NCBI RefSeq assembly: GCF_023507745.1
Contig: NZ_JALPZO010000081.1
Span: 1-64,000, forward strand
DNA from: Vreelandella olivaria
GTDB lineage: Bacteria > Pseudomonadota > Gammaproteobacteria > Pseudomonadales > Halomonadaceae
Length of the DNA stretch: 64,000 nt
Direction of reading: 5' to 3'
This document shows, piece after piece, positions 4,919-18,352 of this stretch. A program made the translations under genes and the position numbers. The notes under the pieces are model-generated. The model ran no database searches and was not told the origin of the DNA. It saw only the letters and a list, made by a program, of their open reading frames with translations. Position 1 is the first letter of the stretch, and each line of letters begins with the position of its first letter.

Positions 4919-5980
4919 ATGGCTCAGGATGACAACCGCACTAAGGCACTCAACGCTGCACTCAGCCAGATTGATCGTCAGTTCGGTAAAGGCACGGTGA
5001 TGCGCCTGGGTGATGCGCCCCGCGTTGTAATGCCGTCAGTCTCTACTGGTTCGCTTGGGCTGGATATTGCACTTGGTATTGGTGGGCTACCGTTTGGCCG
5101 GGTGGTGGAAATCTTCGGCCCTGAATCATCGGGTAAAACCACGCTAACACTCTCTGTGATTGCTCAGGCGCAAAAACAGGGCAAGGTGTGTGCCTTCGTG
5201 GATGCTGAGCACGCGCTGGATCCAAGCTATGCCGAGAAACTGGGCGTCAATCTGGATGACCTGTTGGTATCCCAGCCGGATACGGGTGAACAGGCACTGG
5301 AAATCACCGACATGCTGGTGCGTTCCGGTGGTGTGGATGTGATTATCATTGACTCTGTGGCGGCGCTAACCCCCCGGGCTGAAATTGAAGGCGAGATGGG
5401 GGACTCTCACGTTGGCCTGCAAGCACGCTTAATGTCCCAGGCACTGCGCAAAATTACCGGTAATATCAAGAACGCCAACTGTCTGGTCGTTTTCATCAAC
5501 CAGATCCGTATGAAGATCGGGGTCATGTTTGGTAGCCCTGAAACCACTACCGGTGGTAACGCGCTTAAGTTCTACGCCAGCGTGCGCCTGGATATTCGCC
5601 GCACTGGCTCAGTGAAGTCGGGGGATGAGGTCACTGGTAATGAAACCCGTGTGAAAGTGGTTAAAAACAAAGTGGCACCGCCTTTTCGTCAGGCTGAGTT
5701 CCAAATTCTGTACGGCAAAGGTATTTATCACGCAGGCGAAGTCATCGACCTGGGGGTACAGTGTAACCTGGTGGATAAAGCAGGTGCATGGTACAGCTAC
5801 AAAGGCAGTAAGATTGGCCAGGGCAAGGCGAATGCAGCGCAGTACCTGGAAGAGCACCCGGACATTATGGAAGAAATTGAGTCTCAGATCCGTGCTCAGT
5901 TACTTGCCAAACCTGACCCGAAGAAAGAGGAAGCGCCTGCAACTGATGTAGCTCTTGATGGTGATGATGATCTGCTGTGA
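4919..5980 (+). CDS. recA: Recombinase RecA
   Basis: A 353-aa DNA-dependent ATPase that forms filaments on single-stranded DNA, performs strand exchange and triggers LexA/UmuD self-cleavage. Walker A is GPESSGKT (residues 67-74), Walker B is [12 protein letters not shown], and DNA-binding loop L2 lies around [19 protein letters not shown]. The acidic C-terminal tail ([17 protein letters not shown]) modulates activity. The ATG has an ACGAGGA site 8 nt upstream. The SOS box at 4882-4897 shows LexA control. recX follows after 44 nt. Confidence 0.99.
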
Positions 5981-16354: not shown

Positions 16355-16402
16355 AAAGCGCGGCTTACCGAGCGGGTGCTCGTGTAAGCCGCGCTTTTTT
16401 AT
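16355..16402. terminator. Strong bidirectional terminator between oadB and yigZ
   Basis: A perfect 14-bp stem (AAAGCGCGGCTTAC 16355-16368 with GTAAGCCGCGCTTT 16384-16397) is followed by a T run. It sits between two convergent genes and can serve both. Confidence 0.85.
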
Positions 16403-17019
16403 TAGGCTTTTGCAATGTTGATGGACATTTTAAGACGGTTTTCCAACGCAGTCAGATCAAGCGCACAGTCACTGGGCCAGCCGATGGTTAAACATGCGCC
16501 TTTGCCATCGTAATCTGCTTGGAGAATGGGGATATGTTGTTCATCACACCAGGTGCGTACTAACGCTTCCTGGGCAAAGCCGATACTCAGCAGGTAGCTG
16601 TCTCTTTCCACTACCTCCCGGGTGGGCAGCGTCTCAAGCGCTGCATTGACAGCCTGGGCATAAGCGCGAGCAAGGCCGCCAGTGCCTAATTTGGTGCCGC
16701 CAAAATACCGGATCACTACACAGCCGACTTCTCCAAGGCGACTACCCAAAAGAGCCTGAAACATGGGCCGACCTGCTGTTCCTCCCGGCTCTCCGTCATC
16801 TGAAAAGCCAATCAGCGTTTGTTCTCCAGGCGGGCCAGCAATAAAAGCCGTACAGTGGTGGCTTGCATTGGGATGGGCCGCTTTGGCAGCGCTCAATAAC
16901 GCGTCGAAGGCGGCTTTGTCGGGAGCATGGCATACCCAGGCGAGGAATAGGCTTTTTTCAACCTCGATATCAGCAGTATGCCGTTCCATTGTGGATAAGC
17001 GGGGGACTCGATAACGCAA
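16402..17019 (-). CDS. yigZ: YigZ/IMPACT family protein
   Basis: A 205-aa protein of the UPF0029/IMPACT family, related to eukaryotic IMPACT and E. coli YigZ (204 aa); the biochemical role is not settled. The signature is clear: HPNASHHCTAFI, FSDDGEPGGTAGRPM, VVIRYFGGTKLGTGGLARAY. A C-terminal ferredoxin-like domain follows. The TTG at 17017-17019 has a GGAG site 6 nt upstream and gives the right N-terminal length; the internal ATG ten codons later would shorten the conserved start. It lies 32 nt behind the SOS-boxed S24-like gene on the same strand, so it may be read through from that promoter. Confidence 0.9.
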   Translation of the reverse strand: MRYRVPRLSTMERHTADIEVEKSLFLAWVCHAPDKAAFDALLSAAKAAHPNASHHCTAFIAGPPGEQTLIGFSDDGEPGGTAGRPMFQALLGSRLGEVGCVVIRYFGGTKLGTGGLARAYAQAVNAALETLPTREVVERDSYLLSIGFAQEALVRTWCDEQHIPILQADYDGKGACLTIGWPSDCALDLTALENRLKMSINIAKA

Positions 17020-17051: not shown

Positions 17052-17459
17052 TTAATGGTGCAGGGAGGGGGTGGGGTGGTGCTCAATGCCCATTACCATC
17101 CCTAACACCTGAATATCACAATTATGCAGGAATAGTGCAGGAGTCGCTGCATCTTCGGGCCATAAATGTATGCCTAGCCGACTAATCGATAGCTGCTTTA
17201 AAGCGATTTCGCGCTGATTGATAGTGACCATAGCCGTTTCCTGCTGAGTATCATGCTGGTAACGACGGATAATAATAACATCGCCATCAAAGAGGTTGCT
17301 GTCACGCATCCGATCGCCGCGAACTTTAAGCGCATAGGTGTTGCGACGTGTCATATGCTGGGTGGCATGGGGACGGGCTGCTGGTGCAGTTACCGGCACA
17401 GGTGCTGCGTGTAGCGTTACGTTATGGTGCTGTCGTGATGCTGGCATCGACATTGTCAT
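17052..17459 (-). CDS. LexA-like S24 domain protein lacking the catalytic serine and any HTH
   Basis: A 135-aa protein that resembles only the C-terminal half of LexA/UmuD. Residues ~40-63 (TYALKVRGDRMRDSNLFDGD) match the S24 motif normally reading LxVxGDSMxD...DGD, but the nucleophile position is Arg: the codons read GAT CGG ATG. The general-base lysine is probably kept (REIALKQLS). The N-terminal ~36 residues are Ala/Pro/His-rich, with no helix-turn-helix and no clear Ala-Gly cleavage site, so self-cleavage is unlikely. It has a GGAG site before the ATG and faces three SOS-box matches, so it is probably damage-inducible. No umuC or polymerase gene adjoins it. The function is unknown; a non-cleaving partner for LexA/UmuD-type proteins or RecA is a guess. 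Confidence 0.85.
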   Translation of the reverse strand: MTMSMPASRQHHNVTLHAAPVPVTAPAARPHATQHMTRRNTYALKVRGDRMRDSNLFDGDVIIIRRYQHDTQQETAMVTINQREIALKQLSISRLGIHLWPEDAATPALFLHNCDIQVLGMVMGIEHHPTPSLHH

Positions 17460-17530: not shown

Positions 17531-17546
17531 GTGTTTTTTCATACAG
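17531..17546. promoter_or_regulatory. SOS-box match 2 (middle)
   Basis: GTGT-TTTTTCAT-ACAG, one change from consensus, 18 bp from the start of box 1. Confidence 0.6.
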
Positions 17547-17562
17547 TGGTTGTAGTATAAGC

Positions 17563-17578
17563 CTGTTTTTGCATACAG
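17563..17578. promoter_or_regulatory. SOS-box match 3 (distal, perfect core)
   Basis: CTGT-TTTTGCAT-ACAG, a perfect CTGT-N8-ACAG core, 32 bp from box 2. It is about 104 nt from the S24-like start and 154 nt before ccmA, so the divergent S24-like gene is the more likely target. Confidence 0.75.
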
Positions 17579-17685: not shown

Positions 17686-17731
17686 TTTCCGTGTAGAGTT
17701 CGACGCAAAATCATTGTGCCTGGAGAGACTT

Positions 17732-18352
17732 TTGAGCCTGTGCCTACAAGCCCGACAACTGGCCTGTGAACGTGATGACCGTTGGTTGTTTGAGGGGCTC
17801 GATCTTGATATCCACAGCGGCGAGATTGTACGTATTGAAGGGCCCAATGGCAGTGGTAAGACGACGCTGTTAAAAATTCTTTCGGGTCAACTGAGTGACT
17901 ATCACGGCGAGCTTTATTGGGGGGGCGCGCCGATGCATGAGGTGCGTGAACATTTTCTCGCTAACCTGCTCTATTTAGGGCATGCCCCCGGGGTTAAAGC
18001 AGGCCTTACCCCTTTAGAAAATCTTGCTTGGTATCAGGCGCTTAGTGGTGAGCAAGGCTCGGAGTCAGCACGGGAGGAAGCCTTGGCCCACGTTGGACTC
18101 AGTGGGTTTGAAGACGTGCCTGCCGGGCAACTCTCCGCCGGTCAGCAGCGGCGTATCGCATTGGCAAGACTAACGCTTACTCAACGGGCATTGTGGGTAC
18201 TGGATGAACCTTTCACGGCGATTGACCGCCATGGCGTAGGGGCGCTGGAAGCGCAATTGGTCGCGCATGCCAATGCAGGGGGATGTGTACTCGTTACCAC
18301 GCATCATGAGTTAACCGCTTCACCAGTGCTCAGAAGAGTGCAGTTGGGGTAG
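17732..18352 (+). CDS. ccmA: Heme exporter ATP-binding protein CcmA
   Basis: A 206-aa cytoplasmic ABC ATPase of the CcmAB(CD) complex, which uses ATP to release holo-CcmE from CcmC/D. Walker A is GPNGSGKTT, the signature is LSAGQQRRIALARL, Walker B is LWVLDEPF, and the switch His lies in TTHHEL. Length matches E. coli CcmA (207 aa). The TTG at 17732 follows a TGGAGA site and begins the conserved region; an upstream in-frame TTG at 17714 would add six residues without a ribosome site. First gene of the nine-gene ccm operon. Confidence 0.95.
   Translation: MSLCLQARQLACERDDRWLFEGLDLDIHSGEIVRIEGPNGSGKTTLLKILSGQLSDYHGELYWGGAPMHEVREHFLANLLYLGHAPGVKAGLTPLENLAWYQALSGEQGSESAREEALAHVGLSGFEDVPAGQLSAGQQRRIALARLTLTQRALWVLDEPFTAIDRHGVGALEAQLVAHANAGGCVLVTTHHELTASPVLRRVQLG

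Follow-up and report, generated by a model that had tools for sequence, protein, structure and literature searches.

Within the window, the whole 64,000-nucleotide (64-kb) stretch of the Vreelandella olivaria genome analysed here, a minus-strand open reading frame running from 17459 to 17052 with an ATG start encodes a small protein of the S24 type. The gene is listed in Table 1 with its two neighbours, the paired LexA-box-like sites that precede it, and the recA gene found elsewhere in the window.

Table 1. Coordinates of the S24 locus and its surroundings, numbered from the first letter of the window.
Feature	Coordinates	Strand	Basis
S24 (LexA/UmuD C-terminal-domain-like) protein without Ser, 135 aa	17052..17459	minus	ORF list, Pfam, alignments, dN/dS
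CGG codon of Arg50, catalytic Ser position	17310..17312	minus	sequence and alignments
Codon of Lys88, catalytic Lys position	17196..17198	minus	alignments
LexA-box-like site 1, CTGTATGCAAAAACAG	17563..17578	minus	pattern search
LexA-box-like site 2, CTGTATGAAAAAACAC, 32 nt after site 1	17531..17546	minus	pattern search
TATACT, −10-like hexamer between the twin boxes	17554..17559	minus	40/48 orthologues with the box pair
yigZ-like gene (Pfam UPF0029), directly downstream, possibly co-transcribed	16402..17019	minus	ORF and neighbourhood survey
ABC ATPase at the ccmA position, divergent neighbour, synteny marker	17714..18352	plus	ORF and neighbourhood survey
recA, CTGGCTAATTATACAG 38 nt before the ATG (context, outside the locus)	4919..5980	plus	profile and pattern search

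Pfam assigns residues 37-122 of the protein to S24 (PF00717; E = 2e-10, 40.8 bits against a cut-off of 23.3). Around the active-site motif the protein reads YALKVRGDRMRDSNLFDGDV, and the codons GGC GAT CGG ATG specify GDRM. A first-pass annotation, made from the letters of the DNA, had described GDRM in place of GDSM, with codons GAT CGG ATG, and alignments bear this out on the minus strand: Arg50 occupies the position of the Ser that is catalytic in LexA and UmuD, and the S24 family Ser is absent. The catalytic Lys of the family is present as Lys88, in line with the retention of the Lys-containing strand that the same annotation had noted. The absence of an HTH domain is upheld as well, S24 being the sole Pfam family up to an E value of 1, and at that threshold the variable 36-residue N-terminus has no Pfam match. 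No cleavage motif of the form [VI][ASTC][AC]G lies upstream of the core, in agreement with the earlier view that the N-terminus contains no obvious Ala-Gly cleavage site. The full LexA model (TIGR00498, NCBIfam) scores 43.6 bits, under its cut-off of 110.95, and the NCBIfam UmuD subfamily model scores 40.3 bits (E = 2.7e-10), under a cut-off of 110. The UmuD-like profile PHROG 811 matches the protein with an E value of 1.2e-8.

The catalytic Ser is missing throughout the genus. An S24 orthologue was found in 37/37 Vreelandella genomes of one search and in 75/75 of another, and the residues were read in 76 genomes (37 + 39). At the Ser position, 52 genomes have Arg, 21 have Ala, and His, Asp, and Gly are found once each. 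Ser occurs in 0/76 within the genus and is seen in other genera alone. Whether Arg is fixed at this site was a question raised by the first-pass annotation; it is not (52/76), and the pattern is better described as "never Ser." The Lys position is occupied by Lys in 58 of the 76, by Arg in 13, Gln in three, and Glu and Ser in one each. The [VI][ASTC][AC]G site was found neither in the open frame upstream of the core in 74 genus genes (0/74) nor in the stretch read for the other two (0/2).

Selection on the gene was estimated from 54 sequences, the 53 named Vreelandella loci and the window copy, using pairs with a dS of 0.1-1.2. The median dN/dS of the S24 core is 0.068 across 259 pairs, none of which exceeds 0.5, and the core is therefore constrained. 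This strong purifying selection argues against decay of the gene. The first-pass annotation had named Ser-bearing orthologues and decay as findings that would refute it, and within the genus neither was seen. The median for the N-terminus is 0.35 (235 pairs). This tail is variable and comprises about 20-60 residues before the sequence NTYAL, with uncertain start codons. Judged by its sequence, the Vreelandella S24 protein is constrained yet without its peptidase residues and, by its motif, catalytically dead. Two Ser-less copies are more divergent and replace GDRM and LFDGD with RHDP and LFTGD (L041, genome G009) and with SHRM and LFAGD (L306, genome G182). In G009, neither umuC nor umuD was found.

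Homologues were found in 238 of 250 Halomonadaceae genomes, an even draw from a larger group, and represent 21 of the 24 genera. Outside Vreelandella there are 163 matches, 81 of which were read: 26 loci from 20 genera and 55 further genomes, the latter from 56 rows of which one repeats G064. All 81 have both the Ser and a cleavage site of the form V/I-A/S/T-A-G, and the catalytic Lys is present in each of the 26 Ser-bearing loci in which it was read. An N-terminal arm precedes the cleavage site in the Ser-bearing orthologues inspected for it. Their cores are 42-56% identical to the window core, with a median of 49% (25 rows). The chromosomal setting is also shared: ccmA lies upstream and yigZ downstream at 53/53 named Vreelandella loci, and within the stretch examined around the Ser-bearing loci, yigZ is downstream in 23/26 and ccmA upstream in 18/26. 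By gene order and by the tree described below, the window gene is the orthologue of the Ser-bearing, HTH-less, LexA-like protein of other Halomonadaceae. The position of yigZ (UPF0029) directly behind the S24 gene in the window, at L085-L137, and in most of the family hints at a possible damage-induced operon.

The Ser and Lys columns were left out of a quickly built tree (82 rows, 94 columns). It unites the 34 Ser-less rows in one clade (SH-aLRT 100, stem 1.31), although 41 of its 79 inner branches are open and it carries long-branch warnings. The clade is nested inside the family tree of HTH-less LexA-like proteins of the Halomonadaceae, and Ser changes once. As the tree needs one loss, Ser would have been lost a single time, in the Vreelandella ancestor. 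Many changes apart from Ser fall on the same stem branch. Several positions that vary little or not at all among the Ser forms, the equivalents of N72, G73, T86, and N103, are changed in the Ser-less proteins.

A second, more distant family of mostly small genomes (f15) has Ser in 11/11 rows. The neighbours at its loci (L204-L215) differ, and yigZ is beside the gene in 0/12. Between L213 and L214 on one side and L204-L212 on the other, the cleavage motif varies: one genus has VAAG, the other VSCG or VACG with a Cys-Gly bond. A plasmid search returned 14 records, all below 33% identity and annotated as umuD, lexA, S24, or nothing. In viral contigs, the Ser-bearing profile matched six distant S24 relatives. 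The possibility that the Vreelandella gene is a mobile or phage gene was rejected, as it gave no phage match and no PADLOC match.

The upstream region points to SOS control. Twin LexA-like boxes, spaced 30-34 nt apart, precede 48 of the 54 orthologues, with TATACT between them in 40; the six remaining Ser-less genes lack the standard pair. On this conservation, the Ser-less S24 gene is a predicted SOS gene with putative LexA binding. The pair occurs once in the 64-kb window, both strands considered, which argues against a chance promoter motif. A single box is weak evidence, since the strict pattern CTGTATNNAWAWACAG matches the genome once (site 1), as does its reversed control, and looser single boxes turn up 19 times on one strand of the window and 24 times on the other. 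For CTGTNTNNNNANACAG, the genome has 10 sites, of which four are identical and may come from an insertion sequence; the reversed control has six. Four copies of CTGTATACCCAAACAG occur in the window's own genome (L048, L051, L053, and L055), twice at contig ends; they may belong to an insertion sequence and not be LexA sites. A generic promoter scan did not report the TATACT between the boxes, and the yield of the generic promoter and terminator scan was no higher than in shuffled sequence.

Boxes of the same kind are found before the SOS regulators. In 13/13 genus genomes, lexA has a box resembling CTGTATACTTAA. The recA box was read at the recA gene of the window, the starts in 13/14 recA loci not being located by the script. 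Among the Ser-bearing genes, 19/26 have a LexA-like box within a 436-bp stretch at a score of 19 or more, compared with 2.4% of random stretches of 360 bp taken from the window. No LexA-like box was found before the other seven (L168, L169, L171, L172, L174, L175, and L177), which, together with the 6/54 Ser-less genes without the pair, indicates that SOS control is not universal. Control by LexA may have been lost in the box-less Ser-bearing genes. The sequence TGCTATGATG precedes six of these seven (not L177) and seemingly also some boxed genes (L180 and L185).

Predicted structures agree poorly with LexA. A first AlphaFold2 model, based on 43 alignment rows, has a mean pLDDT of 81 and a pTM of 0.65; the core is mostly above 90, and the first 30 residues are of low confidence, as disordered tails are. 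A second model, of residues 34-135 and based on 36 rows (17 of them distant viral S24 proteins), has a pLDDT of 89.3 and a pTM of 0.76. In Foldseek, LexA ranks first for each model (E = 0.036 and 0.038); the TM-scores are 0.19-0.36 and the rmsd is about 10-13, and neither model superposes on it. VIA-align favours other beta proteins (Z up to 6.1 and 5.9), with no LexA among the best 50, and a viral structure library gave no match at E ≤ 0.001. The superposition result conflicts with the sequence evidence for a LexA-like fold. Either the models or the assumption of an unchanged fold would be wrong. We tentatively favour the first and read the result as a possible artefact of shallow alignments, because the sequence relation to the Ser-bearing orthologues is strong.

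The distribution of umuDC bears on the partner of the protein. The search for umuC (E ≤ 1e-40) succeeded in 27 of 37 genomes, 10 of the 13 Vreelandella genomes among them. The S24 gene is kept where umuC was not found in three of the 13 (G009, G016, and G030), G016 being just 89% complete, and likewise in the Ser-bearing genomes G060, G063, G072, G073, and G143. The UmuD search had no match in G009 and matched solely lexA in G030. In the window's genome, a separate, Ser-bearing UmuD is encoded beside umuC, elsewhere than the S24 gene, whose neighbours are ccmA and yigZ. Both lexA and recA were found in 14/14 genomes tested. On these counts, the S24 gene would seem to belong to the core genome and umuDC to the accessory genome. 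Because the S24 gene persists where umuC was not found (3/13), its product probably does not require UmuC as a partner, and the same observation weakens a role as UmuD/UmuC accessory as the sole function. Elsewhere in the window's genome (L050, contig C120), CTGTATAAACAAACAG is found next to a divergent S24-like ORF and an apparently broken umuC, whose start piece is in L050 and which has a partial match further on.

Self-cleavage is the defining trait of both LexA and UmuD. UmuD becomes active through RecA-stimulated self-cleavage, and the product, UmuD', acts without further catalysis. In the mechanism that we prefer, tentatively and with somewhat less than even confidence, the Vreelandella S24 protein would be "born-cleaved," an SOS effector akin to UmuD' for which transcriptional induction suffices. 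In the ancestral form, a LexA-type cleavage site behind an N-terminal arm would have accompanied the Ser/Lys dyad, and activation would presumably have come from RecA-stimulated self-cleavage, as in UmuD. The Vreelandella ancestor would then have lost the Ser together with the arm and the cleavage site, leaving an S24 core with a variable tail that resembles the processed product. Upon DNA damage, LexA would leave the twin boxes, and the S24 protein, once made, would take a direct part in repair or damage tolerance by binding. Its partner is probably not obligately UmuC. Within this scheme, we infer the self-cleavage of the Ser form, LexA binding, and the activity of the processed form; the interaction and activity of the Vreelandella protein are predicted.

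A constitutively "processed" state would be expected to leave the traits that are seen: loss of arm, site, and Ser on one branch, a variable and fast-evolving tail, a conserved core, and retained boxes. The variable tail speaks against the born-cleaved effector in that it is not an exact remnant of the cleaved form. Moreover, because many stem positions besides Ser have changed, the protein may have acquired a changed function rather than been pre-activated. The genes in which boxes were not found (7/26 Ser-bearing, 6/54 Ser-less) and the poor superposition of both models on LexA also count against the effector, whereas retention of the gene where umuC was not found and the low model confidence of the first 30 residues count in its favour.

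The main rival of the effector is an SOS feedback decoy, and most of the evidence is common to both. In this explanation, which we consider unlikely though worth serious attention, the non-cleavable S24 core, produced in the course of the SOS response, would bind the RecA filament or pair with LexA or phage repressors, slowing the self-cleavage of its partner and so helping to switch the SOS response off. Predicted LexA control, the loss of the self-cleavage residues, and the presence of lexA and recA in every genome tested for them would all suit a decoy. There is also precedent in 434 Hex, a phage protein reported to block cleavage of the 434 and P22 repressors under RecA stimulation, but not the cleavage of LexA (PMC3564112). 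Inactive paralogues, namely SulA and ImuB, are already used in the SOS network (PMC3765255). Mimicry of RecA-bound LexA is weakened, however, as the region of the cleavage-site strand is gone and the equivalents of N72, G73, T86, and N103 are changed. The Ser-bearing orthologues, often under a like box, would in addition be unstable as decoys if they cleave themselves. With cleavage site and active site lost together, and with orthologues of a self-cleaving type, the effector appears to fit at least as well as the decoy.

A decoy had been the proposal of the first-pass annotation, with LexA, UmuD, or RecA as its target. Its basis stands in that a conserved S24 protein without self-cleavage residues is under purifying selection, and it gains from a predicted LexA control that the annotation had not seen. 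UmuD/UmuC as an obligate target is weakened, umuC not having been found in G009, G016, and G030. A bolder reading makes the S24 protein a "pseudo-LexA" of the chromosome, induced by damage and no longer cutting itself, which would act dominantly on RecA or LexA and set how deep or how long the SOS response runs across the genus. This reading, which includes descent through a single loss from a self-cleaving SOS switch kept in sister genera, seems to us rather unlikely.

The protein could instead regulate a Y-family polymerase other than UmuC, or UmuD itself through a hetero-dimer. The UmuD-type profile matches (PHROG 811 and, below cut-off, NCBIfam) and the finding of umuC in 10/13 genus genomes are compatible with this, but three of the 13 keep the S24 gene where umuC was not found (one at 89% completeness), and we think such a role improbable. 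It is a little more doubtful still that S24 and yigZ form a damage-induced operon with a joint task, such as translation or protein quality under stress. The same-strand yigZ directly downstream in 53/53 named and 23/26 Ser-bearing loci would support a partnership, but adjacency on its own is no proof of shared function, and the pairing is not common to the whole group, as it is seen in 0/12 f15 loci (L204-L215). A decaying relic, a sequencing error, or a strain mutation, as the lost catalytic residues and the more divergent L041 in G009 (umuC not found) might suggest, is hardly credible and already refuted for the genus as a whole, given a gene present and Ser-less in 76/76 genomes, a core dN/dS of 0.068 with 0/259 pairs above 0.5, and conserved promoter boxes.

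The born-cleaved effector thus remains the preferred reading, and the locus matters beyond it. The analysis brings to light a LexA-like protein that has no HTH and is retained by most of the Halomonadaceae sampled, and within it a clade of probably SOS-linked S24 proteins that discarded their self-cleavage residues once and keep the remainder under strong selection. In sister genera, orthologues that occupy this same site on the chromosome keep every motif. The role of an S24 core that neither represses nor cuts is thereby made a testable question. Should the "pseudo-LexA" reading be true, the two forms would be a natural before/after pair in which an autoproteolytic switch became a plain effector or inhibitor. 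Among the titles and abstract starts of the literature matches listed, which include few subscription journals, no Ser-less chromosomal S24 gene and no LexA regulon of Halomonadaceae appear. Nor do those titles and abstract starts name the Ser-bearing HTH-less LexA-like protein.

Compared with known systems, the S24 core is homologous in sequence to the C-terminal domain of LexA (TIGR00498/PF00717; PDB 3k2z and 1jhf), but unlike LexA, the window protein lacks an HTH, an Ala-Gly type site, and the catalytic Ser. UmuD and UmuD' are likewise HTH-less S24 proteins, and SOS control is predicted for the Vreelandella gene. Unlike the gene for UmuD, a Pol V subunit, this gene is not beside umuC and persists where umuC was not found. 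The Ser-bearing Halomonadaceae orthologue mostly shares the ccmA/yigZ neighbourhood and retains Ser, Lys, cleavage site, and N-terminal arm, whereas the Vreelandella form is without Ser, site, and arm. UmuDAb of Acinetobacter is described as a UmuD relative turned repressor (PMC11332147, PMC4807011), which resembles the present case as a UmuD relative in a new SOS role in one lineage. UmuDAb requires its N-terminal domain, whereas none was found in the Vreelandella protein. SulA and ImuB are, like the Vreelandella S24 protein, dead relatives of SOS enzymes kept in the network (PMC3765255), although their parent enzymes differ (RecA and a Y-family polymerase). Among the papers listed, the inactive paralogues SulA and ImuB, together with UmuDAb, are the nearest precedents for the Vreelandella protein.
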